IMG/VR virus record: IMGVR_UViG_3300024908_000010
Span: 1 to 53,866 of that record
DNA: 53,866 bases
Strand: one strand, 5' to 3'
Source: a virus
Under the pieces are notes generated by a model. That model saw nothing but the letters and a program-made list of their open reading frames with translations. It was not told the DNA's origin and made no database searches. The translations under genes were made by a program, and so were the position numbers. Shown here piece by piece: positions 715 to 53,826 of this stretch (positions are counted from its first letter, which is position 1; every line of letters starts with the position of its first letter).

Positions 715-733
715 TTTGGTGCGAAAGGAGAGA
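715..733. other. attL core
   Basis: The 19-base sequence TTTGGTGCGAAAGGAGAGA is repeated exactly at 53740-53758, where it is the 3' end of tRNA-Leu including the encoded CCA. A tyrosine integrase gene lies beside the other copy. Together these define the left attachment site of the prophage. Confidence 0.93.
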
Positions 734-4900: not shown

Positions 4901-7900
4901 CCTTCTTTCGCGGCTCTTTTCGCGTAGAAAGGTATTGTAGAAAGCTGCTCTCTTTGCCGTGCGGATTCCTGCGCGATAAGGATTGCTCGTTTCAGTGGCG
5001 TTGACGGTAGCATCTTGTGAACTTCCATCAACAATTCGTGATCCACTGTCGCCATCTGTTCTGGCGTAATAGTCGGATAACACGCGCTCAAAATCATCAT
5101 TGGTGAATTGCTCACCATTGATGGTTGTAAAGTCTTGTGTTGTTGGGTCAAAGATGACATTTTTAAGTTCTGGTAAATTAGTAATTGCACCGTGATAAAC
5201 AGTATAAATCAGTTCTTTAATGTTGTGTGCATCGTCACCTGTTTTCCAGTTGATTTTACGCACTGATTCGCCAAATTCTTTTGTTTTTTCATCGAATGAA
5301 TAGTACAAATCTGGGTCTGTTTGAGCCACATGAGGCGCAATGTGCTTAGTAGTTCCGTACTTCAATGCACTAGACAGCATATTCTCTGCACGGCGGTAGA
5401 AAGCCTTGGCGGTTAAACCAAGCGGATCACCAATAAACACCTTGTCATTGTTGTATGCATAAGCTGCGGCCAGTGAATAAATACGGCTACCAATATCTGC
5501 GCCTGAACGTAAGCGAGATACGTTAATCCAAACCTCATTGCCCTTTTCATAGATAACGGCTGAGCGATATTTAGCGTTTGGTAAAAACACCTCCCAAGCG
5601 GTATCAGCGCCATCTAGTTTTGTTTGTGACTTACCAAATGGTTCAACACGGAATTGCGTGTTCATATCGCTGGCAATATCAGCTATATCTTTTGCATCAG
5701 ATGGGGCGTTCTCAAAGAAATCTTCGTTTCTAGCAGTGAACTCAAGCGCAGCGGTTAGGAATGTGTCGCCTTCTGCTTTTGATGGTACGCGGTTGTTGCG
5801 GCTGTAATACATATTATTGCTTGAGATAAGGCTAACAACATCCTCGCCCTTAGCATAGCGTGAAGCCATTGAAACAATATCTCTAACATCAACATCAGTC
5901 ATCTCAACATTGAATACCAGTTTTGCGAATGCCTTGATGCCATCAATTAAGCGCTGCCATATTGACCTAACAACAGGTGACATTTCAACATCTTGGTCGC
6001 CACGCTCAGCGATAAAAGCTAAAACTTCACCAGCCATTGCGGTATCGTCAATATCCGGCTGCGATTGTTTAACATCATCCCAAATGCCGCGAATGTACTT
6101 ATTGCCTGCTTTATTTAATGTTTTAACTTGCGTTAGCAATTTAGGGAATAAAGTTTTATCAACTTCATTCAGCATGCTCTCAACCGACATATGCCCGATT
6201 GCTTCATGCGCAAACACTTCTCTTAAGCGCTCCTCACTGTTAATGGCATTGGTATTAATCCATATTTCACCATTTGAATATAGGCCTTCCACGTCATTGA
6301 TTCTTACGCTCAATGCGGCCTGAATGTTTTGTTCGCTAGGTAACTGAGTGACCAACTCTAAGCGCTCAATGAGTAGTTGTTCGCTTCCGTTAATTTCCTC
6401 AATAATGCTTGAAGGAATTGGCAGTTTAGAATGATGGTCAACTAACTTTACCTTAGGTATGCCTTTGTGTGACTTCTGCAACTCATCAATAATTGATTGT
6501 GCTTTTTCTTTGTCCATGCCACGGTATGGGGTGGCATTACTACGGCTAAACATCACCACGTTGCCACTGTCGGTTTCTTTGGTTTTTAACTCGCCAAACA
6601 ACGCATCGAACAATGGATTTATTTCCGCTTGCTCTGCTCTTGTTGGATATGGGTATGGATCTTCAAATGCGCCAAAATCTTTAGCTGCTTGGTTAGCAAT
6701 CTCGTAAACGTCCTCATCTTCAATGTTGGCTAAATAGTCATTAGATCTTCCAGCGTCTTTAGACTTAGCAATTAAATATGCTTCAAACGCTCTCGCAGCC
6801 AACTCTTCTGCGGTACTCCAATAATCATTGGTGCGCGTATTGTCAATTTTAGATGAGCGTGTGTAATAGTCTGATTTGCGAATAGCATCCATCAGATTCT
6901 TAAATGCACTTAGCACTTCTGGCCTGATAGATTCATCCAGCTCAAAGCCCTGCCCTGCTTTGTATGTACGCTTTTGTTGTGGCTTCTGTGTTAGGTATTC
7001 ATTGTCACCACGGGCTTTTGAAAAGTAATTGTCCATGGCATGAAACCACTCATGGCCCAAGCTACCAAACCCATTCACTTTAGTGAGGTTAATCACCACT
7101 TCACCACGTTCAAAATGCGCTGCTGCTGGATTTTTCCCACCTTTGCCACGCGCACCAAAAGCCAAGCCTAAAGTGCCGTTTAATGAGATAGCGCGAGGCG
7201 GTACGCCAATAATGTTCGCAAGATCAAGCAATGCGTCATAAGCATTGTTTAAATCTCTTGGTCGGCGTGATTGCTCTACATAGTTACCAAACTGTACCCC
7301 TCTAAAGCCAAACTCTGCGGCAAACTTCTCAGGTGTTACATCTTGTCCTAAGCGATAGTCAATTCCAACGCGAGGGTTGTTTGTACTTCTGCGCTCTGGG
7401 CGCACGTTTTTACGTTGCTCAAGCAACTGCAACAACTCAGCCTCATTGTCTGCATAATATTGGAACGCCTCTTTAGGTGATTTAAACCCACCTTTAAGGT
7501 CAATATATTTATTTGATGCGACCTTTTTACCAATGACTAAATCGCCAGTGGCGGTAACTCGATAAACGTCCAATTTCGTTTTACGTTCTGTACCTTCTGG
7601 TGCAACTTCAAGCTTAATGCGTAATGCATCTACGGCACTTTGTCGGTCATTGAAATATTCACGCTTGCCATTTGGAAACTCTAGCGCAGTTTTCTTGCCT
7701 GCTTCTGCAACGCCTTTATCAAATGAAGTCCATCCACCAGTAATTTTGTAGCCTTTGGCAGACTTAAACGCTGGATACCCAATTTCACCATACAGATTGA
7801 TTCTGTCGGCAAATTTATTATTTACATTGCTCGCGCTTAATATACCTAATACATCATCAATGCTTTTGCTTCCGTTGATTAGTCCATTTGAAAACTCGCG

Positions 7901-10900
7901 CAAAGCAGTAAGCTCACTTACCCATCTACGTACCTTGCTTGGCATTTTAGGTTTGCTAGGAATTTCATCTCGCATCGCTTTGATTGCAGCAATGGCTTTA
8001 ATATCCATGCCACTAGCAATTAGGTTATCGTAGTCAGGTTCAGGAAAGTGTTTAGATAAAGTAATGTCTTTGGCATCAGCAGGCAATTCATCGCCCATGG
8101 CTTTCTGATAGTTTTTCCAAAGGTCTTTTTTAGCGCCTTCTAGCTTCTCGCCGAAGTCATCAATGCGGCCTACTGGCGCTTGATCTGCCACATCCTCTTC
8201 TGCCGCTTCGTTTGGGGCACCATAAGCATCAGCCACCTCATCAGCCGTGACTTTACCTTCGCGCACATCTTTAATGGTGTCTAGCTTTTCCTTGCCTTTA
8301 ACGCCTGCGGCGGTGAGCGCTTCTGCGGCTTTGGCTACTTCGTCATTTGCTTGACCGTTGCTTGATTGATTGGCTGTATTTTCTGCAACATCCTCGCCAG
8401 TGCTAGCTTCTGTATTTGACTGTTGCTTGATTGGCGCTGAGAACAAATCTTGCGCCCCGGCTGCTGCGGCCTGATCTGCTTCACTGTTTGAACCAGTTAG
8501 AGTGAATGTATCTTGATTGTCATTGCCTGAATTGCGCTTAGCGTCTTTTGCACGCTCGGCATCAGCAACGGCTTGTTTGGCGGTAGTATTGTCGCCTAGT
8601 AGGTCGGTTTTACTGTCTGTTACTTCCGCTTGCTGACTGGCGTTAGTTTGCGTTGTTGTTGTACTTCTTTCGCCGCTTCCAGTATCGCCATTCTCGCGCT
8701 CGGTGTTAATGACGCGAGCCTCTGTAGCAGTTTCTCTTTCCTCGTTTGTGGCTTGTCTGAGTTGCTCATTGATTTCATCCTCTGTTAATAGTTCTGCCGC
8801 CTCTTGAACATCGCTTTCAGCTGTTGCTCCTGCGTCTTGGTAGTATTGATTCGCTTGAGCCTCTTCAACAACTGCATACGGCAATACTGATTCACCGTTT
8901 CGTATTTTTTCCGAAAGGTAATCATACGCCTCTGTTGAATCAAAAGCATCATCATTAGCGCCGTTAGATTCAAGGCGCATGTTGTATGGTAGGTAATCGA
9001 CTAAATCACCTGATTCAATCAAGCCCTTGAGTGAACGGTTAGATGCTTGTTTGAATACTTGGTTATATCCACCAGGCGCAAAGCCTTTTACTTCGCCTGT
9101 AACATCTTGTTTTTCAGATAGCTTAATGCCGCCAATGTCACGTAGGGTTGCTAGTAGCGTCTTAGGTTTGTATTGTTTAGGTGATTTTGGCTTTTGTACT
9201 TTAGATGTTGTAGCACCACTCTCAACGGTTGAGCTTGGGAATTCTTTAACATCATCAAGCAACTGAGCAATAGGCGCATTCAAACGGATTACATCAACAT
9301 CGCCGCCTTTGTTTAATTTAGATAGCCATTGATGATGGCCGTCTAACACATGGTTGTCAGATGAAACCAAGATTGAACGGTCACCGCCTGCATACTTGCT
9401 TGCCTTCTTAACCTTGGCTTCTGAAAACTCTTGCTGTGTTGGTTTAAGTGATGATGCTGGTACCGTTTCTTGCGTGTGGTCCACGCCTCTAGCATTCAAA
9501 AAGTTAACCATCGCGCCACGGTGCTCTGCTTTTACTTGCGGCATTTCTGAGCGTGGAATGTTTAGCGTGCCAGATTCAGGACTGAATGCGGTCCACTCTT
9601 TGTTAATTTTCTCACCAACATGTACGCCTTTTACCTTTTCATCGACACGTTCCGCTGTTGTGTTTACGCTATCGACATTAGTAATGCCACGTAACTTCAA
9701 CTCTTCATCAATTTGGCTAATGACTTTTGCATCAGTGGTCATGCTGCGCATCTTCGGCAAGAAGTCGTCTGTGGCTTGGGCGAATGGACGTGATACTGCA
9801 TCTTCGCCATTAAGTATAGCTATTGCATCGTTCCCTTGTATTCCATTTCCATTAAGTTGATCGCTTCCGCTGCCTTGTGCAGATGCTTCGGTAGAGTTAT
9901 CAATTGGTCCTGTATCGCTCCGTCCTGCAAGCTGATTAGGTAAATCTCCCAAGCTTCCTTGTATGTTATCACTTGAGCCTGTAATGGTTTCGTTAGCCAG
10001 CTCGGTAGTGGCATTAGTCGTATCGCTGACATTCTCATCCCCTAAAATATCGCTTGCTGGTATGGCTTCTGTGGCGCTTTGCACTTCTGCAAGTAAGGCA
10101 TCATCACTGATTGAATTTAACAAGCCTGTTTGTGGCACGGGTATATCAATTGCTTTTTCAGCAAGCGCAATAGCGTCATCAATACTTGCATCGGGATTGG
10201 TAATATTGGCAAGCGCTGTATCTGCCTCGGCTTGTTTAGCGTCAAACTCAACTTGTAGTGTTTCAGCGTCAATGTCGCCTTGAGTGTTACCATCAACACG
10301 GACATTTGAAGTAACTTGCTTAAAAGATCCAGCACCTTGCAACGCGCCGACAACTGCACCTGGCACGCCTGCTGCTGCCGCTTCTAATAACCCTTGTCTG
10401 TTGATTTGTCCAAAGTCTATTTCTTCTCGATTGCCAAATGCGTATTCGCCAGTTTGTACGCCTAATCCTTGGCCACCACCTTCAACATATTCTTGCAAAG
10501 ATTCTTTACCTGCAGTTTTTGCTGCATTAGCAAGGCGATTTACTGATGATGAAACGCCACTATTCCCTCTGGCAATTACGCCTTCCGCACCGCCCTTAGT
10601 AATCTTATTGCCTAGTAGCGTAGTAATACCAGCAATTGCCGCTGCCGTGTATTTAGTGCGTGCGTCACCTTCTGCCTCGCTAAATGCGCCGCCTGCGTTT
10701 ACACCAACGTTCATGGCAATAGCGGCTTGTGTGCCTTTTTCACGGCCATACCTTGCAGCTAGCGTTTTGATTGACTCTGCATTACGCCCAGCATATTTAG
10801 CAGTTAAGTTCGCTGCTGCCTTTTCACTGGCTAGTTTAGTCACGCCTGCACCAACGCCACCACTTGCTAACATAAAGCCAAGTGAAGGGATTGCAACATC

Positions 10901-11752
10901 AGATAAAACAGATGGGTTTGCAGTTAAAAACTCTGTTAGTTGAATGCCTGTACCATTTTTTACAATGTTTTGTAGCTCAATAGACTTCTGGCGCAACTCT
11001 GGCGACTGCTTATCTGTCTGGTACTTAATGGCATCATCGAAGCCTTCACCCATCGACATAATCATGTCACCCACTACTGGGATGTAATTCGTGCCTAACC
11101 CTAAAATATCTGTTGCCATCTTCCCTGTTGTCGGGGCGATCTTAGCTACTGCCCTTACGGTATCAAGTGCGTAATCAACGACCTCTCTCTGTGGCAAGCC
11201 GTTTGCTATGGTCGCAATGTCGTTTCCGTCCTCGCCTTGCTCAACCATGTTTTTAGCTGTGTTAAAGTCAGCATTTGAGTTCTTCATGACTTTGTTAATT
11301 TTCGCTTCTTTGCGATTATCACCAATGCCATCTTCTTTAATTTCTTGATATTGTTTATCTACCTCTGATGCGACATTGCCTAGCCAATCTTTGCGATTGG
11401 AAAGTTCTGCTCTTTTTTGTGGTGTTGCATTTTCGTAGGAAGACTTAACTTTATTGAAAGTTTGGTCCGTGACTGGTGCGCCTTTGCGCTCAATGGCACG
11501 GCGATCATCAATAACCTTTCCATCCATGCCATCAACAACTGACTTGTATTTGCTATTTGGTGTAATAGCTTTAACAATATCGTCTTTTACTTGAGATAGG
11601 AATGATTGAGGCTTAGGCGATTCCGGCTGTGGCGCTTGTGCAAAATCCGCATCTATCTGATCCGCGATTGAAGGCATTGCTTGCGATATTTCTGCCTCGC
11701 TCATGCCGCCTGGGAATGTGATTGATTTACCGCGATATACTACGTTAGCCAT
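1910..11752 (-). CDS. Giant polyvalent virion protein (3280 residues), probably ejected with DNA
   Basis: Multi-domain phage protein of the large polyvalent type, expected to be packed in the virion and delivered into the cell. Visible parts: Ala/Gly-rich hydrophobic segments at residues about 210-480; a low-complexity acidic region; a ParB/sulfiredoxin-like motif DGHHQW (804-809); an LPD5-like segment starting DDFGEKLEGAKKDLW (about 1197); an LPD1-like domain with zincin motif HEWFH (1567-1571); a second zincin HEAIGH (1849-1854) after RGMDKEKAQSIIDEL; an unassigned alpha/beta part at about 2050-2300; residues 2318-2343, which look like the fused ends of an excised ADP-ribosyltransferase domain; and an LPD38-like C-terminal region (about 2700-2960) with a hydrophobic segment. 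It is the last and longest gene of the late region, behind its own promoter motif. Domain names are from memory of family patterns; activities are inferred. Confidence 0.85.
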   Translation of the reverse strand: MANVVYRGKSITFPGGMSEAEISQAMPSIADQIDADFAQAPQPESPKPQSFLSQVKDDIVKAITPNSKYKSVVDGMDGKVIDDRRAIERKGAPVTDQTFNKVKSSYENATPQKRAELSNRKDWLGNVASEVDKQYQEIKEDGIGDNRKEAKINKVMKNSNADFNTAKNMVEQGEDGNDIATIANGLPQREVVDYALDTVRAVAKIAPTTGKMATDILGLGTNYIPVVGDMIMSMGEGFDDAIKYQTDKQSPELRQKSIELQNIVKNGTGIQLTEFLTANPSVLSDVAIPSLGFMLASGGVGAGVTKLASEKAAANLTAKYAGRNAESIKTLAARYGREKGTQAAIAMNVGVNAGGAFSEAEGDARTKYTAAAIAGITTLLGNKITKGGAEGVIARGNSGVSSSVNRLANAAKTAGKESLQEYVEGGGQGLGVQTGEYAFGNREEIDFGQINRQGLLEAAAAGVPGAVVGALQGAGSFKQVTSNVRVDGNTQGDIDAETLQVEFDAKQAEADTALANITNPDASIDDAIALAEKAIDIPVPQTGLLNSISDDALLAEVQSATEAIPASDILGDENVSDTTNATTELANETITGSSDNIQGSLGDLPNQLAGRSDTGPIDNSTEASAQGSGSDQLNGNGIQGNDAIAILNGEDAVSRPFAQATDDFLPKMRSMTTDAKVISQIDEELKLRGITNVDSVNTTAERVDEKVKGVHVGEKINKEWTAFSPESGTLNIPRSEMPQVKAEHRGAMVNFLNARGVDHTQETVPASSLKPTQQEFSEAKVKKASKYAGGDRSILVSSDNHVLDGHHQWLSKLNKGGDVDVIRLNAPIAQLLDDVKEFPSSTVESGATTSKVQKPKSPKQYKPKTLLATLRDIGGIKLSEKQDVTGEVKGFAPGGYNQVFKQASNRSLKGLIESGDLVDYLPYNMRLESNGANDDAFDSTEAYDYLSEKIRNGESVLPYAVVEEAQANQYYQDAGATAESDVQEAAELLTEDEINEQLRQATNEERETATEARVINTERENGDTGSGERSTTTTQTNASQQAEVTDSKTDLLGDNTTAKQAVADAERAKDAKRNSGNDNQDTFTLTGSNSEADQAAAAGAQDLFSAPIKQQSNTEASTGEDVAENTANQSSNGQANDEVAKAAEALTAAGVKGKEKLDTIKDVREGKVTADEVADAYGAPNEAAEEDVADQAPVGRIDDFGEKLEGAKKDLWKNYQKAMGDELPADAKDITLSKHFPEPDYDNLIASGMDIKAIAAIKAMRDEIPSKPKMPSKVRRWVSELTALREFSNGLINGSKSIDDVLGILSASNVNNKFADRINLYGEIGYPAFKSAKGYKITGGWTSFDKGVAEAGKKTALEFPNGKREYFNDRQSAVDALRIKLEVAPEGTERKTKLDVYRVTATGDLVIGKKVASNKYIDLKGGFKSPKEAFQYYADNEAELLQLLEQRKNVRPERRSTNNPRVGIDYRLGQDVTPEKFAAEFGFRGVQFGNYVEQSRRPRDLNNAYDALLDLANIIGVPPRAISLNGTLGLAFGARGKGGKNPAAAHFERGEVVINLTKVNGFGSLGHEWFHAMDNYFSKARGDNEYLTQKPQQKRTYKAGQGFELDESIRPEVLSAFKNLMDAIRKSDYYTRSSKIDNTRTNDYWSTAEELAARAFEAYLIAKSKDAGRSNDYLANIEDEDVYEIANQAAKDFGAFEDPYPYPTRAEQAEINPLFDALFGELKTKETDSGNVVMFSRSNATPYRGMDKEKAQSIIDELQKSHKGIPKVKLVDHHSKLPIPSSIIEEINGSEQLLIERLELVTQLPSEQNIQAALSVRINDVEGLYSNGEIWINTNAINSEERLREVFAHEAIGHMSVESMLNEVDKTLFPKLLTQVKTLNKAGNKYIRGIWDDVKQSQPDIDDTAMAGEVLAFIAERGDQDVEMSPVVRSIWQRLIDGIKAFAKLVFNVEMTDVDVRDIVSMASRYAKGEDVVSLISSNNMYYSRNNRVPSKAEGDTFLTAALEFTARNEDFFENAPSDAKDIADIASDMNTQFRVEPFGKSQTKLDGADTAWEVFLPNAKYRSAVIYEKGNEVWINVSRLRSGADIGSRIYSLAAAYAYNNDKVFIGDPLGLTAKAFYRRAENMLSSALKYGTTKHIAPHVAQTDPDLYYSFDEKTKEFGESVRKINWKTGDDAHNIKELIYTVYHGAITNLPELKNVIFDPTTQDFTTINGEQFTNDDFERVLSDYYARTDGDSGSRIVDGSSQDATVNATETSNPYRAGIRTAKRAAFYNTFLREKSRERRSEILGTYVRELQNRGLADSLRGTFYSRSTPQTETPQFKAWFGNNGDFNPTNPDIRFSRTSSQGNLNNEIPAETTAQKIQRIGQDKFNRFKVLQDFLVEKGLELDEAADVYLAETLMSGRISTRKEDFREGQVEPLIKRTQAADLSMEQIGDFLKAQHAPEANKRARQLQNREDATAFGVSDAEAQDAMDAFKELPNFVELKSIANDWRKITEQTKKIKIDSGLLTPELVAAWESAYEMYVPVKGGDDAGTTTGTGQGLNVRVRNKQRLGHGLRDEAIIENILRDHESAITLDEKNRVGKALIRFALAAKNDDIITIDKPVKRQVLKQGETAYVVANKGIDTATFATRKEAELYIQSQVAFGQTKSNFSVDQTKDPVRVMLQASPQLADNEVTVYVGGHAIRLQINDEIAAREYKNMGVEHLNAIFSAGREVNNWLSKAYTGYSPDFIFTNPIRDSIQGAITLTGNLGGVTTAKIFANYPTAVKELVKHFKNKGSSALVNEYRAQGGSTGGAYLSDLERIGNDIQSSYNEYQGALATYKSVYEKNIANGKSAKAAHTMASLKAGSAGFKKIPIIGHFLKLMESINAITENALRVATYKTLTENGISKGRSAAQAKNLMNFNRKGEQSNAAGALYLFFNPAVQGTKLIQEALMESPYKRQAQALAGGMTAMAFTMAMMALNGDDEDKDKWNKTPDYIKDGNIVFDMFGTQFTLTLPYGYRVFWSLGNVMADATQDGANYGKLGNRVASSLFANFSPVGNPMEGENGLFQLLPTLPKMALAPGVNEDSFGRPITPKKWNPATPDSQLMNRGTQGSLYDGVSEKLNSFTGGSNFKSGVVDVSPETLKFWVKSLTGGAGQFAFDSANIVKQGAQGVSPQNLKDIPIARKFARETGVTDSRSAFWERKNEADMAADQLALAKKAHDTAAIADFINENGMLIKMSKMSDRMLKMANGKRDAIGAIKLNENLTLSEKIKMINELEDEEKKIYDKYINIFDKQSN

Positions 11753-35912: not shown

Positions 35913-36400
35913 GCAAACCTCAACATCTTCTCTACTACGTTATTCACCTCTTCGCGCCCTGCGTATGTGCTTAAAACATCAGCAAGCAATACATCAAGGC
36001 AACGGTTATAAACTTCTTCAAAGTCTGGTTGCTCCATCCTTGCAAAGCTGATTGACTTAGGTTCTAACCTTAAACGACCATCTAGCCCGAATGTCTGCTC
36101 ATAAAACCCTGCGGCAATCAGTACATCAGCGCGGAATATTTCAAAGTTCTTTTGCACTTCGCGGCCTTTGTAGCTTTTATGCTTGCGCTGTGGCTCCCAT
36201 GCATCAAAGCCTAGGTTCAACATTGCGAAAAACTTGCGATGATGGCGGCTATTGCGTGGTAACTTTGCCTCGATAGAACACAACTCACCCTCTTCAAGTC
36301 TGCTTAAGCGTGTCTTGAAGTTTTTGTAAGCAACCTGATCGGCTTCACTCATTCCGCGAAGTGAGCCGTCTGGTTGTTTTACTAGGGTGATGGTTGCCAT
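35909..36400 (-). CDS. DUF1367 family phage protein (163 residues)
   Basis: Matches the pattern of DUF1367 in NinB/NinG neighbourhoods: KLPRNSRHHRKFFAMLNLGFDAW, NFEIFRADVLIAAGF, EPKSISFARMEQPDFEEVYN. It may do the NinB-type job in recombination, but no activity is established. It shares one base with the stop of the PAPS-reductase-like gene and overlaps NinG by 4 bases. Confidence 0.82.
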   Translation of the reverse strand: MATITLVKQPDGSLRGMSEADQVAYKNFKTRLSRLEEGELCSIEAKLPRNSRHHRKFFAMLNLGFDAWEPQRKHKSYKGREVQKNFEIFRADVLIAAGFYEQTFGLDGRLRLEPKSISFARMEQPDFEEVYNRCLDVLLADVLSTYAGREEVNNVVEKMLRFA

Positions 36401-37251
36401 TAGTCAGTACACCCACAATCCGCAAGCTCAACATCCTCGTAACCGTAAAAGTCACCTTGGCTTACTGCCATTTGTTTAATTTCAAAGTAGCTAGGCCTAT
36501 CTTTTCTAAACTTACCTGTCTTTGCGATAAGTTCTTTTTCAGAAAATGGCCTTGATTCTTGCTCGATCCACCAGTCTGCTAGGCTTGGCGCTTCACTTAC
36601 CAATGAGAGCGTTTGTCCTGCGCCTTTTAAAAAGCACAAATCACAATTGCCGTGCATAGTTTTGCCGTTCATGTTTGGCAAGTTGAGATCAAACGGCTGA
36701 CCTTTCCAAAACTTTCCAACATCTGCGGCCGTTATTCCGATGCTTGCCAATGGTGCGTATCGTTCAAATGGTTCTGATGATGGGATTGATAACTTAGCCA
36801 CACGGCTTGGCTCGTCCGATCTAAAACCAATGGCAACATCCCAGTTCTTCCAGCCAAGAACTTGTTGTGCATATAGCTTCATTACGCGAATTTTTAATTC
36901 AATCGTGCAAAATCGCATTGTTGGATTAGGCAGATAGTTCTTATGCGTAATGAGGTCGGCAAACGGCTCGCCATTTCTGCTTGCTGTTTCGTAAGTCACT
37001 TCACGCCAGCGCTTTTGTGGCTCTTCGTGTGATTGATACTCAAGCCATACAATCGGCACATTCCAGCGTTTTGAACACTCATTAACAAAGTCCAATGTTT
37101 GCGGCATTTCTTTACCTGTGTTTGCAAATACAACCTTTACAAAATCAGGTAATACTCGATCATGAGCATCAAGCAACATATCAAGCATCATTCCGCTAGT
37201 GCGGCCACCGCTAAAACTAAGCATAGTTGGTGATGTTATTACTAAGCCCAT
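36400..37251 (-). CDS. PAPS-reductase/ATP-pyrophosphatase-like protein (283 residues)
   Basis: An N-type ATP pyrophosphatase: the PP-loop LSFSGGRTSGMMLDML, then VVFANTGKEMPQTLDF and IVWLEYQ. Cys residues in TMRFCTIELKIR, HGNCDLCFLKG and the end ADCGCTD could bind an iron-sulfur cluster. Relatives activate sulfate or nucleosides with ATP (PAPS reductase, TtcA, DndC); phage members are common in early operons and mostly untested. DNA or tRNA modification is possible. I choose the ATG at 37251; a GTG three codons earlier is an alternative. Confidence 0.8.
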   Translation of the reverse strand: MGLVITSPTMLSFSGGRTSGMMLDMLLDAHDRVLPDFVKVVFANTGKEMPQTLDFVNECSKRWNVPIVWLEYQSHEEPQKRWREVTYETASRNGEPFADLITHKNYLPNPTMRFCTIELKIRVMKLYAQQVLGWKNWDVAIGFRSDEPSRVAKLSIPSSEPFERYAPLASIGITAADVGKFWKGQPFDLNLPNMNGKTMHGNCDLCFLKGAGQTLSLVSEAPSLADWWIEQESRPFSEKELIAKTGKFRKDRPSYFEIKQMAVSQGDFYGYEDVELADCGCTD

Positions 37252-37253
37252 AC

Positions 37254-37460
37254 CTACCACTCAACCTTTGCAGGCTCTTCATCAGTACCCTTGCTCTCGT
37301 AATTAGGGCAATCGGCAGCAACCCAAAAATCACGGTAGCCAACGCCATAGCCATTCGGTAAGAACCGTTTGCACTTCTCTCGATGCTGGCAAATGTGCGT
37401 TTGCACTGGTGATTCACCGCGGCAAAACTCGTATGAACTTGTTGGTGTTGGCTTACTCAT
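37254..37460 (-). CDS. Small Cys-containing protein (68 residues)
   Basis: No family recognised. It has spaced Cys residues (EFCRGESPVQTHICQHREKC and VAADCPNYES) that may bind a metal. It ends 2 bases before the PAPS-reductase-like ATG, so the two are coupled and may work together. Confidence 0.6.
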   Translation of the reverse strand: MSKPTPTSSYEFCRGESPVQTHICQHREKCKRFLPNGYGVGYRDFWVAADCPNYESKGTDEEPAKVEW

Positions 37461-37848: not shown

Positions 37849-38040
37849 TCATCCTTGTTTAAAAAGTTGTTTAATCTCAGCTCTTGATTGAGCTGCAGTC
37901 TTTACTGCCTTCACTTCACTCTCACCACTTGCTTTCACTTCACCTGTAAATGTCTGAGTTCCATTTGTGGCCCGGTAAGTAAAACTAAATCCAGCATCAC
38001 GCATTTCTTTGATGAATTGATTGCAGGTTTTCTCGATCAT
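37849..38040 (-). CDS. Small early protein (63 residues)
   Basis: No family recognised. An alpha/beta peptide: KTCNQFIKEMRDAGFSFTYR, then a beta strand pair and the helix VKAVKTAAQSRAEIKQLF. Overlaps the HNH gene stop by 4 bases (ATGA). Confidence 0.6.
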   Translation of the reverse strand: MIEKTCNQFIKEMRDAGFSFTYRATNGTQTFTGEVKASGESEVKAVKTAAQSRAEIKQLFKQG

Positions 38041-38636
38041 GCCGCCTGCTCTTTTTGCATACTCTCAATCAGTTCTATGCGAGAACCAATCCAAGCCATT
38101 ACAGTTTTACAAAGAGATATGAATTGTTCATCCGTTAAATCTCGCTTTGCTAAGTTCACTTCTTTTGATAGCCATTGCAGATTTTCAATTGCATCTAAAC
38201 CACCTTTTGCTTTTGGCAATTTATGGTCAAGTTGAGCTGTTCTATCAAGCCTTAATCCACTAAGCGCACATAATCCCTTTTGGCTTTTCCATAAAGATGC
38301 AATTTGTTTTGTAGTAGCTTTGTTTTCGCCTTTCAATTTCATTGCCTTAACCCAAAAGAATCTTTTACTTGCGTATTCACGCATTTTCTCCCTAGCTTTT
38401 TCTGGGTTTTTTGCTCTTAAAGAATTTTGATAATTTCTAATTGCTTGTGGGTTTTCTTCACGAACTTTCTTCATGTGCAATCTTTTTCTTTCTCGCGTTA
38501 CTTCACCGCCTTCTTTATAGAGTTTTCTTTGATATTCTCTTTCGCAATTTTTGCACTTTCCAATTCGATAACCTTTTTTATGAAAACGAAATTCAATAAG
38601 GGGTTTTTCTACTAAACACTCTTTGCAGATATACAT
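38037..38636 (-). CDS. HNH endonuclease with N-terminal zinc ribbon (199 residues)
   Basis: The N-terminus is a CxxC...CxxC zinc module (YICKECLVEKPLIEF; GKCKNCEREYQ). A basic helical middle follows, then an HNH motif in the C-terminal part: GLCALSGLRLDRTAQLDHKL, GGLDAIENLQWLSKEVNLAK. It overlaps the C5-methyltransferase gene by 25 bases. It could be the restriction partner of that methyltransferase or a free-standing homing nuclease; the zinc ribbon plus HNH architecture is used in both. Only sequence context favours pairing. Confidence 0.85.
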   Translation of the reverse strand: MYICKECLVEKPLIEFRFHKKGYRIGKCKNCEREYQRKLYKEGGEVTRERKRLHMKKVREENPQAIRNYQNSLRAKNPEKAREKMREYASKRFFWVKAMKLKGENKATTKQIASLWKSQKGLCALSGLRLDRTAQLDHKLPKAKGGLDAIENLQWLSKEVNLAKRDLTDEQFISLCKTVMAWIGSRIELIESMQKEQAA

Positions 38637-39898: not shown

Positions 39899-40374
39899 GC
39901 CGTCATCGCCTCAACTTCTTTTGCAAGCTTCAATGAAATATCTGGGTAAGCTTTCGGATTAGCTAAGATTGGTTTAATCCATGCGCGGTAATCAGTGCGA
40001 CTTTTTGCCGTCATTGATGTTGATATTTCAGTCATGCGCTCATGGTTCTTTTGCAACTCTTCTTGCGTAAACTGCCTGCCAATTGCCTTGGTCATTTCAC
40101 TTGGTGTACTGGCTTTACATAACTGCACAAACTCTGGCAATGTTGGGGGAAATCTCAAGTGATCAGCGCAATAATCAACGGCTTTAAATACCGCTTTTGA
40201 ACTCATGCCAGATAGCTTCAATTGCCATTCCGCTTTCACAGAATCAACTGGCACGTCCGACCACATATCAATCCAATGCTTGCCGTAGAAACTAGCCATG
40301 CGCAGAAATAAGCGGTCTATCGGGTTCTGTTGTGTAGTCTGATACATCGATGATTCTTGGCTGGTTGTCTGCAT
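39895..40374 (-). CDS. Replication protein P-like helicase loader (159 residues)
   Basis: Resembles lambda P-type proteins: NPIDRLFLRMASFYGKHWID, VKAEWQLKLSGMSSKAVFKA, CADHLRFPPTLPEFVQLC. P proteins bring the host DnaB helicase to the phage origin. The start at MQTTSQES is chosen because GGAG stands 9 bases upstream; it overlaps the end of the O-like gene by 83 bases in a different frame. Order O then P is as in lambdoid phages. Confidence 0.75.
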   Translation of the reverse strand: MQTTSQESSMYQTTQQNPIDRLFLRMASFYGKHWIDMWSDVPVDSVKAEWQLKLSGMSSKAVFKAVDYCADHLRFPPTLPEFVQLCKASTPSEMTKAIGRQFTQEELQKNHERMTEISTSMTAKSRTDYRAWIKPILANPKAYPDISLKLAKEVEAMTA

Positions 40375-41194
40375 TTGTAATATCTCCGAACATGGCTTTA
40401 GCCGTTGCACTGCGTTTATCGTGAATTGATTGAGTTTTCTGTGGTGCGGTTGGTAGTGCGCCTTTTGATACGTTTCTAATCCAATTGCGCCAAGTAGCCT
40501 CCCAATCAGCTTTTTTAGATTTGGCTTGATTTGAGTTTGCTATCCAATGGTCTTTAAACTTTTCGGCTTCTTTTCTAATCAAGTCTGCAGTAAGGTCTGG
40601 TCTTTCAGATAAAGCCCATTCCCCCCATGCTTTTGGCAGCAACCAATTTGGATCAAGTGCTTTCCCTTTTTGCTTGGGTGCGGAATTTATTTCCGCACAA
40701 GAATTACTGTTACTGTTACTGTTACTGTTACTGTTACTGTTACTGTTACTGGTTAACGAAGGGTTGTTTAACGGTTCGTTAACTGTTTCAGTTTTCGTGT
40801 AATCCAAACCCAAAAAATATGCGTTAAGCCTCATGTATTCTTGCTTCCAGCTACATTCGTCAGGAATTGATTGTGCAATTTTTGCCGCACTCTTGAATTG
40901 ATTTGGGTTCTCTGGTTTGTTCCACTCAAAATGTTTAACAATCCATACCCATTTGGTGGTTTCGCAACGGTTAGCAAAGCCCTTATTTAACAGTTCATTA
41001 AGGGTTGAATTAACCCTTTCAGAACCCCATTGCAAGTCATCGCAAACATACCCATCAGGCAATCTAAATGCGCCTGATATTGTTCCGTGTGGGCATGTAA
41101 GTAGGTACATCGCAAGCGACCTTGCATCTTCACTCATGGTCCTTGTTGTCTGGCTAGTCCAAAACGATGTATGAACCTTTCCATAATCGCGCAT
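40292..41194 (-). CDS. Replication initiator, O-like (300 residues), with Ser-Asn repeat linker
   Basis: The N-terminal domain (MRDYGKVHTSFWTSQTTRTM; DARSLAMYLLTCPHGTISGAF; VNSTLNELLNKGFA) is the winged-helix type of phage replication initiators. A linker at residues about 149-164 is pure Ser-Asn, made by eight hexanucleotide units. The C-terminal part (LPKAWGEWALSERPDLTADLI; ADWEATWRNWIRNV) is the usual partner-binding domain. The AAGGAG ribosome site before ATG supports the start. It should bind the origin and recruit the P-like loader encoded next. Confidence 0.82.
   Translation of the reverse strand: MRDYGKVHTSFWTSQTTRTMSEDARSLAMYLLTCPHGTISGAFRLPDGYVCDDLQWGSERVNSTLNELLNKGFANRCETTKWVWIVKHFEWNKPENPNQFKSAAKIAQSIPDECSWKQEYMRLNAYFLGLDYTKTETVNEPLNNPSLTSNSNSNSNSNSNSNSNSCAEINSAPKQKGKALDPNWLLPKAWGEWALSERPDLTADLIRKEAEKFKDHWIANSNQAKSKKADWEATWRNWIRNVSKGALPTAPQKTQSIHDKRSATAKAMFGDITNADNQPRIIDVSDYTTEPDRPLISAHG
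40704..40751. repeat. Hexanucleotide microsatellite (TTACTG x8) in the replication gene
   Basis: Eight exact TTACTG units on the plus strand read as (AAC/AGT) codons, a Ser-Asn repeat, on the minus strand. Being six bases long, unit gain or loss keeps the frame and only changes the linker length. Confidence 0.95.
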
Positions 41195-41909: not shown

Positions 41910-42134
41910 TTATGCGGCGGTTCTTATAAAAGCCCAGTCAACATTAGGCGACAAATCTTCAACCAATACGGCTCTGTTCGATTCGCGCTCAATGTTCACC
42001 ACAAGCTCAGATTTAAAGGTGGTTCCTTCTGAAATTGCTTTGCGCAAATAACCGATAGTTGTGCCGCACCTGATAGCAAAATTATCTTGCTCAGCGGTGG
42101 TAAGTGAATTGAGAAATTCGCGTAATTTGTCCAT
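41910..42134 (-). CDS. Cro-like (YdaS-type) regulator, 74 residues
   Basis: A small helix-turn-helix protein: MDKLREFLNSLTTAEQDNFA, then IRCGTTIGYLRKAISEGTTF, ending VDWAFIR. The pattern is that of YdaS/Cro regulators, which oppose the lysogenic repressor. The ATG at 42134 is preferred to a longer frame from 42170 because the operator and the -10 element (42142-42158) lie between the two. It is transcribed divergently from the repressor gene across a 93-base operator region and heads the leftward early operon. Confidence 0.82.
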   Translation of the reverse strand: MDKLREFLNSLTTAEQDNFAIRCGTTIGYLRKAISEGTTFKSELVVNIERESNRAVLVEDLSPNVDWAFIRTAA

Positions 42135-42141
42135 AAACGAA

Positions 42142-42170
42142 ACATTACCAAATAGTAATTTAATTTGCAA
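42142..42170 (-). promoter_or_regulatory. Leftward early promoter with repressor operator
   Basis: On the minus strand: TTGCAA (-35, 42170-42165), 17 bases, TAATGT (-10, 42147-42142). The operator-like palindrome TTACCAAATAGTAA (42145-42158) covers spacer and -10. The same arrangement occurs at the rightward early promoter (45397-45425). Binding of the repressor here should shut off the Cro-like and replication genes. Confidence 0.8.
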
Positions 42171-42177
42171 GAATTAT

Positions 42178-42206
42178 TTACCTTTTGGTGTTTTACTAAA
42201 TGGTAA
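42178..42206. promoter_or_regulatory. Two further operators in front of the repressor gene
   Basis: TTACTAAATGGTAA (42193-42206) is the exact reverse complement of the operator at 45409-45422. TTACCTTTTGGTG (42178-42190) is a weaker version. They lie just upstream of the repressor ATG (42228) and probably govern its own promoter. With the site at 42145-42158 this gives a three-site operator like those of lambdoid switches. Confidence 0.72.
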
Positions 42207-42227: not shown

Positions 42228-42908
42228 ATGGATAACCGAAGCCAAACAGCCGATAAAAGACGTGAGAACTTACGCAGATGGATTGATGAAAGATGCGAGG
42301 GGTCTCAGGCAAAATTCGTTGATGTAACAGGCATCAATCAAGGGGAGTTGTCAGGCTTATTGCGTGATAAGTCATTTGGTGAGAAAAAAGCAAGAAGCTT
42401 AGAATTGAGTGCAGGAATGCCTCAATTTTATTTGGATGGCATCATTGCAAATGAATTTACAAGTAAAGAATTGCCGCCGAATAGTTACAAAGTAGAAGCA
42501 AGCTTGTCTTACCCTCCTGTTTACGGAAAAGCTATGGGCGGTTTACCAGATAGATTATTTACAGATGAAGGCCGTTTATGTAATGGTCATGATGAGTATG
42601 GTGAAGTGTATTCAAGTGATAAGAATGCATTTATCACTAGGGTTGATGGAAACTCAATGATTCCTAAATACCATCATGGCGGCTATGCGTTGGTTGAGCC
42701 TGACACTGAACCAGAGCTTGAAGATGATGTATTGATTAAACTAACTACAGGCCAGGTGATGCTTAAGAAATTAATATCACGCAGAGGTGGTGTAGTGCTA
42801 TCGAGTTATGGTGACCCAGTTATTTATACGTTTACACCTGATCAGATTGTTTGGATGTATTACGTTGCTTATCCAGTGCCGGCTAGAAAAATTAAGAATA
42901 GGGTTTAA
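42228..42908 (+). CDS. CI-like repressor with S24/LexA-type peptidase domain (226 residues)
   Basis: Master repressor of lysogeny. Residues 1-70 are a helix-turn-helix domain (RWIDERCEGSQAKFVDVTG, then INQGELSGLLRDKSFGEKKA). Residues about 95-226 are an S24 domain with catalytic Ser143 (RVDGNSMIPKY) and Lys180/181 (GQVMLKKLI). The usual Ala-Gly cleavage pair is not clear; KAMGGLPD at 101-108 stands in the region where it is expected. DNA damage may therefore still trigger self-cleavage, but this is unproven. It is divergent to the Cro-like gene, with operators in between, and is followed within 2 bases by a nuclease gene. Confidence 0.92.
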   Translation: MDNRSQTADKRRENLRRWIDERCEGSQAKFVDVTGINQGELSGLLRDKSFGEKKARSLELSAGMPQFYLDGIIANEFTSKELPPNSYKVEASLSYPPVYGKAMGGLPDRLFTDEGRLCNGHDEYGEVYSSDKNAFITRVDGNSMIPKYHHGGYALVEPDTEPELEDDVLIKLTTGQVMLKKLISRRGGVVLSSYGDPVIYTFTPDQIVWMYYVAYPVPARKIKNRV

Positions 42909-42909
42909 T

Positions 42910-43647
42910 GTGAGCAATTCATTACATGTTTTAGACATTGCAGAGATTGTTTTAAAAGATGGCAATAAGCCTATGCACGTTAATGAAATAGCAATGACTG
43001 CTGCAAATAAAGGGTTGATAGTAAATTTAACTCTTGAGGAATTTACAAAGAAGTTAAATTCATCTTTGCTTGCAAATACAAAAACAGAAAAACCAAAATT
43101 TACAAGAGTAAAAAGCGCAAAAGGAGTTTATAGGAAAGGTTTTTATCGCCTTAAAAGAATTATTAAGCAGCCAGACTTATTTCCTACACCTGAGCCTACT
43201 CAATCAGAAGATACAGGGTATATTGGCAAAGCTGGCGAAATGGCAGTAATGGCGGAGCTTTTGTTTAGAAACTTTAACGTTTCCATGATGATGGTTGATA
43301 AAGGGATAGACATTGTTGCAGCAAACGATGTTGGAAAGTATTTTCATATACAAGTAAAAACAACTGGCGGTAGAGATGGGTATTACTTGTTTACAATTAA
43401 AAGAAAAGCATTTGACGCAAATAATGCGGGTAACACTTTTTACATTTTTGTAATTAGAAACCCAAACAAATCTGATTTTTTAATTTTGCCAAACGCAATA
43501 CTAGCAAGCTATATAGCACTTGATGTTGTTAGAGGTTCAGAATCACTCAGCTTAAAAGTTACTTACGACAGCAAAACAAAGAAATATACGCTAAACGGCA
43601 GGGTTGATATTACAGTTCACGTCAATAAGTTCGCACAAATAAACTAA
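42910..43647 (+). CDS. HARE-HTH and PD-(D/E)XK nuclease-like protein (245 residues), lysogenic operon
   Basis: Residues 1-85 match the HARE-HTH pattern, a DNA-recognition winged helix found in restriction enzymes (LDIAEIVLKDGNKPMHVNEI; GVYRKGFYRLKR). Residues about 102-245 look like a PD-(D/E)XK nuclease or Mrr-like core: GKAGEMAVMAELL with Glu110, GIDIVAAND with Asp134, and FHIQVKTT with Gln148-Val-Lys150. The GTG start follows the repressor stop by one base; a frame from 42808 inside the repressor gene is less likely. Made together with the repressor, it may protect the lysogen against other phages. That role is inferred. Confidence 0.78.
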   Translation: MSNSLHVLDIAEIVLKDGNKPMHVNEIAMTAANKGLIVNLTLEEFTKKLNSSLLANTKTEKPKFTRVKSAKGVYRKGFYRLKRIIKQPDLFPTPEPTQSEDTGYIGKAGEMAVMAELLFRNFNVSMMMVDKGIDIVAANDVGKYFHIQVKTTGGRDGYYLFTIKRKAFDANNAGNTFYIFVIRNPNKSDFLILPNAILASYIALDVVRGSESLSLKVTYDSKTKKYTLNGRVDITVHVNKFAQIN

Positions 43648-43796
43648 AACAGCAACGCTAACTTAAATCAATATAAAATGAATTGCACTGGAATAATGTT
43701 TGATGACGCTTCTTTGCAAGACGCACAAAGCGTGGAAGATGTACAACCTAGATACGGAAAATATGAATAGAAATCATAAAATAAAGGCGCCATCTA

Positions 43797-44150
43797 ATGA
43801 CATTTAATACTATTTTAAAAAATGGATTCCCTCCTAGATTAATGGTAGTAGTTATTATTTTAGCATTGGTATTTCCTCCGTACTTAAATTATGTTGGCCC
43901 TAATACTTTGTACCATTTTGGCTATGGGTTCATCTTTAACTTACCAGAGTTTGATAATGGTTCTGATGCCTTTGTTTACATAGAGATGGTTTTATTAGAA
44001 ATATTTGTATTGGTGCTTTCATCGTATTTCTATGGCTTGCATGTAATCACAAAAAATAACAAGCTTAAAGATGAGTTTGAAAAAATAATAGATGAAGAAC
44101 TAAAGCCAAGAAGAGTACATATTTCACCAAGCCAAATAGAAGATAATTAA
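43797..44150 (+). CDS. Two-span membrane protein (117 residues), lysogenic region
   Basis: Hydrophobic segments at about residues 14-35 (LMVVVIILALVFPPYLNYVG) and 60-84 (VYIEMVLLEIFVLVLSSYFYG) flank a short loop; the C-terminus is charged and cytosolic. AAAGG stands 9 bases before ATG. It lies 150 bases after the nuclease gene on the same strand. Membrane proteins in this place often block superinfection; nothing specific supports it here. No family recognised. Confidence 0.65.
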   Translation: MTFNTILKNGFPPRLMVVVIILALVFPPYLNYVGPNTLYHFGYGFIFNLPEFDNGSDAFVYIEMVLLEIFVLVLSSYFYGLHVITKNNKLKDEFEKIIDEELKPRRVHISPSQIEDN

Positions 44151-44293
44151 TTGAAGTATCTCAAGGCTTATGGGATGCTGTTAATGCAATTATCTCAGGC
44201 TACAATCGTGGCGCAGATTCTGCATTAAGAAATAGGCCTAGAAATGCATCCTGCACTACTATCGGGAATACTACTGATTGTTATGAGTATTAA
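44150..44293 (+). pseudogene. Remnant of a gene 3' end in a 352-base gap
   Basis: Directly after the 117-residue gene, one frame reads IEVSQGLWDAVNAIISGYNR, continues GADSALRNRPRN and ends TTIGNTTDCYEY before a TAA. It looks coding but has no start codon. It is probably the tail of a gene that lost its front by recombination. The rest of the gap (44294-44502) contains a weak 40-codon frame (44283-44405) and a promoter at 44445-44453. Confidence 0.5.
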
Positions 44294-44444
44294 TAGATCG
44301 CAACATGGGATCATTAAAGTTAAACGCATACTAGCTACAATAGCATCGCCATTCGTACAAGGTGGTGCTAATGTTCCAGTGCCTATTATTGATGTGGCAA
44401 TCTAGTAGCAATGGCACTGCGCGCCAATTGGCAAATTGAATTTG

Positions 44445-44453
44445 TGTTACAAT
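44445..44453 (+). promoter_or_regulatory. Extended -10 promoter for the two-gene cassette
   Basis: TGT followed directly by TACAAT forms an extended -10 element, with a poor -35 (CAATTG, 17 bases upstream). It lies 50 bases before the next start codon and allows expression from the silent prophage. Confidence 0.5.
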
Positions 44454-44502
44454 CAATACTCTATGTAAGCATATTAGCCAATACATTTATTAAAATAACT
44501 CA

Positions 44503-44799
44503 ATGACAATATACGCTGCAATTCCTCTAGCCAATAACATTGCAAGACTCTCAGAGTCTGTGAGTGAGGTATTCCCTGATGATAATATCAATACGTACGC
44601 TCTACCTTCTGGCGCAGGTTTTTTAATAAACTTTAGCGGAACAAATCAGGAACTTTGCGACAAACTGTTTATCACTCAAGGAAAAACTGAGGAACAAAAG
44701 TCATACGTTGGATCCACCCTTGTTGTACCTTTTGATTACTACTGGGGCGTTGGAAATTCATCTATGTGGGAATGGCTAAAAGCTAGGTTTGAGGAATAA
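44503..44799 (+). CDS. Small soluble protein of the accessory cassette (98 residues)
   Basis: No named family. It is an alpha/beta protein with IPLANNIARLSESVSEVFPD, ALPSGAGFLINFSGTNQEL, TLVVPFDYYWGVGNSSMWEW and the end LKARFEE. The ribosome site is weak. Its stop is followed after 2 bases by the start of a membrane-anchored coiled-coil protein, so the two are co-made and may work as a pair. The cassette has its own promoter and double terminator, typical of an added gene (moron) expressed during lysogeny. Confidence 0.68.
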   Translation: MTIYAAIPLANNIARLSESVSEVFPDDNINTYALPSGAGFLINFSGTNQELCDKLFITQGKTEEQKSYVGSTLVVPFDYYWGVGNSSMWEWLKARFEE

Positions 44800-44801
44800 C
44801 A

Positions 44802-45248
44802 ATGGCAAATCAACCTGGACATGATGCAGACTCCCCTCCGCAAAGTGAGGCAGTTACAAAACCAACCCCAAGAGCAGATTCAAGCTACTTCACTCAAGAG
44901 GTTGAGTACACTAGGCAAGCAATCAATGAAATGCGAATAGAGATGAATAAGCATGCGGCTGACTCTAAAGCAGAAATAACAAAAGCTGTAGATGCATTCA
45001 TTAAAAACACTATTGAAGTCAACAGCAAGACTGCTATTTTAAGCGCCGAAACGAAAGGGCAATATGCAACACTTGACGTATCAGTGAAGCAGCTTACAAA
45101 ATCCATTGATGAGATGAAGCCAAAGGTTGATTCACTAACTAGTTGGAGATTGTTACTAATTGGAGGAAGCACCGTAATTATGGCTTTATTTAGTATACTT
45201 CTAACTCTATGGATCAAAGGGGTAATAAAAATCTCATGGCCCATTTAA
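44802..45248 (+). CDS. Coiled-coil protein with C-terminal membrane anchor (148 residues)
   Basis: A disordered N-terminus of about 25 residues is followed by a long helix (residues about 30-115; EVEYTRQAINEMRIEMNKHA, QLTKSIDEMKPKVDSLTSW). The C-terminal span is LLLIGGSTVIMALFSILLTLW. The topology places the coiled coil in the cytosol with a membrane tail. It is the second gene of the pair, ending 10 bases before a terminator. Possible roles include sensing or membrane disruption as part of an exclusion system. No family recognised. Confidence 0.68.
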   Translation: MANQPGHDADSPPQSEAVTKPTPRADSSYFTQEVEYTRQAINEMRIEMNKHAADSKAEITKAVDAFIKNTIEVNSKTAILSAETKGQYATLDVSVKQLTKSIDEMKPKVDSLTSWRLLLIGGSTVIMALFSILLTLWIKGVIKISWPI

Positions 45249-45258
45249 ACTTTTAACC

Positions 45259-45281
45259 AACCTGCTTCGGCAGGTTTTTTT
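45259..45281 (+). terminator. Rho-independent terminator 1 after the accessory cassette
   Basis: AACCTGC, TTCG tetraloop, GCAGGTT, followed by a run of T. A 7-bp stem 10 bases past the last stop codon. Confidence 0.92.
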
Positions 45282-45320
45282 ACGTCCATTCAGTTATACG
45301 CAAAAATCGTACAGCTCACT

Positions 45321-45344
45321 AACCGCCCACTGAGGCGGTTTTTT
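45321..45344 (+). terminator. Rho-independent terminator 2 after the accessory cassette
   Basis: AACCGCC and GGCGGTT form a 7-bp stem with a 6-base loop, followed by TTTT. Together with the terminator at 45259 it insulates the repressed early promoter from lysogenic transcription. Confidence 0.9.
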
Positions 45345-45383
45345 ACGTCTAAATTTCCTCACTATAAAAATAATTAAAATAAA

Positions 45384-45425
45384 TTACCAAATGGTATTGA
45401 CACGATAATTACCATTTAGTAATAT
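45384..45425 (+). promoter_or_regulatory. Rightward early promoter with two repressor operators
   Basis: TTGACA (45397-45402), 17 bases, TAATAT (45420-45425): a nearly ideal sigma-70 promoter. Operator 1, TTACCAAATGGTA (45384-45396), abuts the -35. Operator 2, TTACCATTTAGTAA (45409-45422), covers spacer and -10. The sequences match the sites beside the repressor gene, so the repressor should silence the recombination operon from here. Confidence 0.9.
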
Positions 45426-53739: not shown

Positions 53740-53758
53740 TTTGGTGCGAAAGGAGAGA
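53740..53758. other. attR core
   Basis: The right copy of the 19-base repeat TTTGGTGCGAAAGGAGAGA. It corresponds to the 3' end of the tRNA-Leu acceptor stem with CCA, so crossing-over here leaves the tRNA whole. Confidence 0.93.
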
Positions 53759-53826
53759 CTCGAACTCTCACGCCTTACGGCGCTGGAACCTAAATCCAGT
53801 GCGTCTACCAATTCCGCCACTCTCGC
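53742..53826 (-). tRNA. tRNA-Leu (anticodon UAG)
   Basis: On the minus strand the 85-base gene begins GCGAGAGTGGCGG and ends CTTTCGCACCA. Acceptor pairs GCGAGAG/CTTTCGC, anticodon loop TTTAGGT between CTGGA and TCCAG, a long variable arm (GCGCCGTAAGGCGT) and T-loop GTTCGAGTC are all seen. The long variable arm is the mark of leucine tRNAs. CCA is encoded. It is the phage integration target. Confidence 0.97.

Follow-up and report, generated by a model that had tools for sequence, protein, structure and literature searches.

What role might a phage gene play that starts one base behind the prophage repressor and encodes a DNA-binding domain joined to a nuclease domain? The question is raised by a gene at 42910..43647 (+ strand; 245 aa, GTG start, stop included) in the window, which here means the whole stretch of 53,866 nucleotides that was analysed (IMG/VR record IMGVR_UViG_3300024908_000010). 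The window is an integrated phage, as a 19-bp direct repeat (TTTGGTGCGAAAGGAGAGA) is found at both of its ends: an attL-like copy lies at 715..733 and an attR-like copy at 53740..53758, where it coincides with the 3′ end of tRNA-Leu (53742-53826, - strand), and the integrase gene adjoins this end. The phage also encodes a 3280-aa polyvalent protein at 1910-11752 with LPD1, LPD5, LPD37 and LPD38 domains. An Asn-Ser codon repeat run (40627-40782) lies on the opposite strand of 40292-41194, inside a replication-type protein.

The gene upstream of the nuclease encodes an S24-type (CI-like) prophage repressor of 226 aa (42228..42908, + strand; Peptidase_S24 7.8e-11, phrog_4 6e-21). Its TAA stop codon occupies 42906-42908 and the nuclease GTG begins at 42910, which confirms the earlier note on this DNA in its claim that a single base separates the two genes. 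An AGGG Shine-Dalgarno-like motif lies 6 bases 5′ of the GTG, within the 3′ end of the repressor gene (42900..42903, + strand), and is the likely ribosome-binding site of the nuclease. An alternative ATG at 42808, which would overlap the repressor gene, was rejected, and the GTG is preferred because the starts of the homologues cluster near it, at a distance of no more than about four codons. No terminator-like site was found between the two genes. Together with the one-base gap and the shared strand, this suggests that the nuclease would be co-expressed with the repressor.

The surroundings of the two genes resemble a lambdoid immunity region. A divergent gene for a Cro-like regulator (41910..42170, - strand; phrog_35 transcriptional repressor, 7e-7) precedes the repressor, and palindromes of the TTACCAAATRGTAA type are found at 42145 and 42193 in the Cro-like/repressor interval and again at 45384 and 45409, 5′ of the RecT/YqaJ operon. 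The first pair belongs to a putative OR-like operator cluster at 42145..42206 (TTACCAAATAGTAA at 42145-42158, a weaker site at 42178-42191 and TTACTAAATGGTAA at 42193-42206), while the second pair makes up a putative OL-like cluster at 45384..45422 (TTACCAAATGGTAT at 45384-45397 and TTACCATTTAGTAA at 45409-45422) which overlaps a promoter-like site of the rightward recombination operon (RecT/YqaJ). Five genes, those of the repressor and the nuclease plus three small ones, lie between the putative operator clusters, and two intrinsic-terminator-like hairpins behind them (45259..45345, + strand) would end the cargo transcript. In lambda, the arrangement is OR-cI-rex-OL, and the nuclease is placed as lambda Rex is, between the repressor and the OL-like cluster and on the repressor strand. 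RexA/RexB of lambda and Hex of 434 are likewise cargo 3′ of the repressor between the operators, and they are made in the lysogen, as the window nuclease would be. The likeness is one of position: RexA/RexB families gave no match among the Pfam or PHROG hits up to E 1, and Rex is, to our knowledge, not known to be a nuclease, in which it differs from the window protein.

The product of the gene consists of two domains. A HARE-HTH-type winged helix covers residues 8-69 (42931..43116, + strand; Pfam PF05066, AlphaFold2, VIA-align) and a PD-(D/E)XK nuclease domain covers residues 101-245 (43210..43644, + strand; PF11645, phrog_5018, fold and invariance). Taken singly, the window protein matches the Pfam HARE-HTH model weakly (residues 8-69; 22.2 bits against a curated cut-off of 25.9, E=1.9e-4), and its Pfam PDDEXK_5 match at residues 101-201 (E=4e-5) falls just under the curated cut-off; the nuclease part also matches phrog_5018 at 4e-9. 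HARE-HTH is matched by 16 of the 22 family members at 0.01, the best at 8e-21 in that scan and at 7e-21, above the cut-off, in a further one, and PDDEXK_5 by 20 of the 22; these family-wide matches go far to settle the doubt left by the sub-cut-off scores of the single protein. An AlphaFold2 model built from the 22-row alignment (mean pLDDT 87.5) agrees with this division. In the model, residues 1-84 form three helices and a two-stranded wing, as in a winged helix, with a pLDDT mostly above 90, and a low-confidence linker (residues 87-104) joins them to a PD-(D/E)XK core at about residues 104-245 in which the α-β-β-β-α-β arrangement expected for this superfamily is present. The HARE-HTH call of the earlier note thus holds by way of the family matches and the winged-helix fold, in spite of the weak Pfam score of the protein itself.

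The fold comparison was the sole informative route to solved structures, as a PDB sequence search with the single sequence or a profile gave no match. The N-terminus resembles the winged helices of I73R, FOX and PHF1 (Z 8-9.6). The nuclease domain comes closest to I-Ssp6803I (Z 14.5) and archaeal Hjc (Z 12.6), in both of which the nuclease domain alone is matched, at about 16-17% identity, with no winged helix and in another genomic setting; SPARDA nucleases (Z 11.5), the methylation-dependent enzymes Eco15I and NhoI (Z about 10) and RecU (Z about 8.5) follow. Among viral predicted structures, none of the best matches was full-length over both domains. The earlier note had also pointed to Asp134 and Gln148-x-Lys150 as nuclease residues, and they lie as claimed: D134 (codon at 43309) where the second strand of the model begins, Q148 (43351) and K150 (43357) on the third, and E110 (43237) in the preceding first helix, which completes the site. 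Each of these residues is the same in 29 of 29 homologues from phages, proteobacteria, CPR and DPANN, and the flanking motifs GKxGE and QVKT are nearly or fully invariant. The invariance of the predicted catalytic positions across 29 divergent homologues argues for catalysis. The modelled domain may nevertheless act on particular DNA structures, as its closest folds are those of Holliday-junction resolvases and of a homing endonuclease.

Whether the nuclease belongs to the core machinery of the phage can be judged from its sister phages. The gene lies in a variable cargo slot that reaches from the repressor to OL (42909..45258, + strand), as seen from comparison with L091, L092, L093 and L110-L112 and from GC content and hydropathy. 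GC content is 33.9% in the nuclease gene, 29.9% in the neighbouring gene and 42.5% in the phage. The other genes of the slot, all on the + strand, encode a 117-aa protein with two transmembrane segments (43797-44150, very AT-rich), a 98-aa protein (44503-44799) and a 148-aa protein with one C-terminal transmembrane segment (44802-45248), none of which has a confident family match. The C-terminus of the repressor is 98% identical to that of the window in L092, 91% in L091, 81% in L110 and 65% in L093, while L111 and L112 have the same flanking core genes; orf84, the core gene that follows the slot, is kept along with RecT in most sister phages, the L093 record ending before orf84. From the repressor to orf84, their slots hold a lipoprotein gene, genes for secreted proteins, or a lipoprotein gene together with one for a secreted HNH-like protein and a 190-aa gene, and the nuclease is absent from the slots of all six phages. 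As the slots are filled with unrelated genes, the nuclease is swappable lysogeny cargo and not core phage machinery. The small secreted HNH-like protein, found beside the lipoprotein in L111 (4247-4516) and L112 (2698-2967), is possibly another exclusion factor. The repressors of L091, L092 and L095 have S24 C-terminal halves 91-99% identical to that of the window and a different N-terminal DNA-binding half, which amounts to domain swapping of immunity specificity.

These observations bear on the possibility that the protein is a Holliday-junction or branch-specific nuclease which serves phage or host recombination and not defence. The presence of archaeal Hjc and of RecU among the similar solved folds speaks for such an enzyme. 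However, the gene lies in a lysogeny cargo slot apart from the recombination genes, it is missing from the sister phages, and the sister clade of the family, described below, is located among restriction-modification genes. In addition, the phage already encodes NinG, RecT and the YqaJ exonuclease, which together with the swappable nature of the cargo argues against an essential recombination role. We know of no resolvase that bears a HARE-HTH domain, which also counts against this explanation, and we consider it unlikely.

The position of the gene would also suit a toxin-like or abortive-infection nuclease that is switched on by a signal of infection and cuts both host and phage DNA, possibly in concert with the membrane proteins of the slot. 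Exclusion systems that respond to a signal are among the genes which lambdoid phages carry in the Rex position, and the downstream 117-aa and 148-aa products do resemble membrane proteins. Against this, the homologous loci L006 and L010 are devoid of those downstream genes and differ in what follows the nuclease, so that a conserved partner gene is lacking, and the N-terminal domain is DNA-binding in type with no obvious signal sensor. Such a mode of action appears quite improbable.

Homologues with both domains are found in a few phages and, rarely, on the chromosomes of members of the proteobacteria, Desulfobacterota, CPR bacteria and DPANN archaea. With about 400 genomes sampled per phylum and full-length members counted, such members were present in 6 of 380 CPR genomes, and the Pseudomonadota sample and the sample of the Desulfocapsa phylum held none, seed genome aside. 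A tblastn search of annotated phage and plasmid records gave no match at 0.01 and only fragments at E up to 10. The tree contains two well-supported groups, with the finer placement unsure given the long branches. Clade 1 unites the window gene with those of five other phage records and with proteobacterial and desulfobacterial genes, while clade 2 is mostly made up of CPR and DPANN members. In one phage-record homologue (L031 4792-5528), the HARE-HTH part is separated from the nuclease part by a frameshift, which may reflect decay, a sequencing error or a programmed shift.

The linkage to a repressor on which the earlier note had built survives a survey of these neighbourhoods, which added four further cases. 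In L006, the nuclease lies 41 nt downstream of a different S24 repressor. In L010, it follows a repressor-like gene, judged as such from its HTH-like sequence and without a Pfam match, with two small genes in between, and in L033 and L036 an S24 repressor adjoins the nuclease on the opposite strand. The chromosomal homologues L011-L016 and L021 lie outside obvious defence islands.

The two clades differ in their association with methyltransferases. A methylase motif or restriction-modification cluster (scored as an amino-methyltransferase motif gene within about 5 kb, or a cluster shown by Pfam) was found at 11 of the 13 clade-2 loci against 0 of 20 control regions, which came from five of the clade-2 genomes and lay in several cases on short contigs (Fisher p=4e-7). 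Pfam families in these neighbourhoods include N6_Mtase, Eco57I, D12, N6_N4_Mtase, Dam, MT-A70, ResIII, HsdR-type and Methylase_S. One homologue is directly preceded on its 5′ side by a fusion of a TnsA-like nuclease domain with an S24 peptidase domain (L026 3622-4974), and this fusion lies beside type III restriction genes. Near the clade-1 nucleases, no amino- or C5-methyltransferase motif was found (12 loci, flanks up to about 5 kb), the sole nearby methyltransferase in this clade being the C5 enzyme of the window phage itself. Within these flanks, a methyltransferase paired in the same operon is absent for the window gene and clade 1, whereas restriction-modification genes are adjacent in clade 2.

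The C5-cytosine methyltransferase of the phage (38612-39898; PF00145, 9e-54) is encoded in the leftward operon behind the Cro-like gene, on the opposite strand and 3 kb from the nuclease. An HNH-like ORF (38037-38636) adjoins it. A PAPS-reductase-family protein is encoded at 36400-37260 in the leftward early region, and a link to the nuclease is conceivable, as Dnd loci, which serve sulfur modification, are known to include HARE-HTH nucleases. If the methyltransferase protected DNA from the nuclease, the two would form a restriction-modification pair, as the presence of the enzyme in this phage, a C5-methyltransferase match in the phage of locus L006 (G001) and the methyltransferases adjoining sister-clade members might suggest. 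In the lysogen, however, the repressor should silence the divergent leftward operon and thereby leave the host chromosome unprotected. Moreover, the match in G001 is partial and contains a stop, the phages G002 and G014-G016 have none at all, and the chromosomal homologues are without a nearby methyltransferase. The chances of such a pairing are slim. That the protein is a regulator, whose winged helix binds operators of either the phage or the host and whose nuclease fold now serves as a non-cutting binding module, would suit the repressor linkage and is very improbable given that the four catalytic positions are invariant in 29 divergent homologues.

The preferred reading is that of a lysogen-expressed, stand-alone, restriction-type nuclease, plausibly modification-dependent, which serves superinfection exclusion as lysogenic cargo, and we hold it with slightly better than even confidence. 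The gene is a moron, placed immediately 3′ of the repressor gene in the part of the immunity region that the two operator clusters flank, and while the prophage is dormant its product would come from the transcript of the repressor. The HARE-HTH winged helix would bind DNA and probably recognise either a modified base or some specific sequence, whereas cutting would fall to the PD-(D/E)XK domain by means of E110, D134, Q148 and K150. Superinfecting phages would thus face a restriction enzyme of type IV (modification-dependent) or one that tells self from non-self in a similar way. What we observe is the gene with its domains, predicted fold and invariant residues, its place in the cargo slot and the restriction neighbourhood of clade 2; that it is transcribed along with the repressor, cleaves DNA, senses modification and excludes superinfecting phages are steps which we infer.

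As methyltransferases are missing from the flanks covered in the prophage clade, self has to be spared by another rule, for which a modification reader is the simplest candidate; methyltransferase-free flanks in clade 1 are what an enzyme able to do without a protecting partner would lead one to expect. A role in defence by cutting DNA is supported by the restriction neighbours of clade 2, by the fold and by the invariant site, and with the variable slot these lend weight to the restriction-type role suggested earlier. On the other hand, a modification-dependent nuclease could be a danger to the very phage that carries it, as this phage encodes a C5 methyltransferase; that enzyme is possibly a partner, or else its mark is one which the nuclease must ignore. 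That HARE-HTH reads modifications in bacteria is itself predicted.

The two-domain plan has been met with before. Fusions of HARE-HTH with a REase have been described for Dnd phosphorothioate loci as well as for BREX loci, in papers that cite Aravind and Iyer (2012). In Dnd loci, HARE-HTH fused to a REase has been proposed to discriminate modified from unmodified DNA (PMC10853773), and HARE-HTH-REase is listed among BREX-associated effectors (PMC12839542). The window protein shares this plan, whereas its clade is solitary or prophage-borne, repressor-adjacent and outside Dnd and BREX operons; the two are likened here by architecture. Winged-helix type IV endonucleases, including the prophage-encoded HhiV4I, are likewise fusions of reader and nuclease that rarely have methyltransferase neighbours, but their wH domains belong to another winged-helix group and read 6mA, and both domain order and nuclease family differ (PMC11037411). 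For HARE-HTH, cytosine modification is named as the likelier target (PMC11037411). NhoI and Eco15I (8rpx, 8q5n, 8q5o) share the nuclease fold over about 110 residues, at an identity of 16% or less and with no alignment to the HARE-HTH domain.

The description of the gene as an undescribed defence gene in the earlier note has to be narrowed accordingly: the architecture is published, while no model of PADLOC-DB 2.0.0 matches the window protein and it has no annotated phage or plasmid relative in the records searched. Relatives of the nuclease gave scattered weak matches to PADLOC nuclease models only. What is new here is the setting in a prophage cargo slot, the contrast between the two clades and the absence from PADLOC and the searched phage and plasmid records.

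A broader and more tentative proposal, to which we give well under an even chance, is that the solitary HARE-HTH nuclease clade has spread among the immunity regions of prophages, as cargo exchangeable behind unrelated repressors, and constitutes a repressor-coupled form of type IV restriction which reads cytosine or other phage modifications. HARE-HTH occurs both in restriction enzymes of bacteria and in human chromatin proteins (ASXL, HB1-type), and in the literature surveyed no demonstration was found that it reads DNA modification in bacteria; if the proposal is true, the clade would provide a bacterial HARE-HTH with demonstrated reader function. Further exclusion genes might be sought in the variable slot behind this repressor. 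As one clade is linked to methyltransferases and the prophage clade is free of them, the contrast yields a testable prediction on what each of them reads, and the window protein, with 245 aa, a single gene and no partner, is about the smallest test object that the HARE-HTH family offers.
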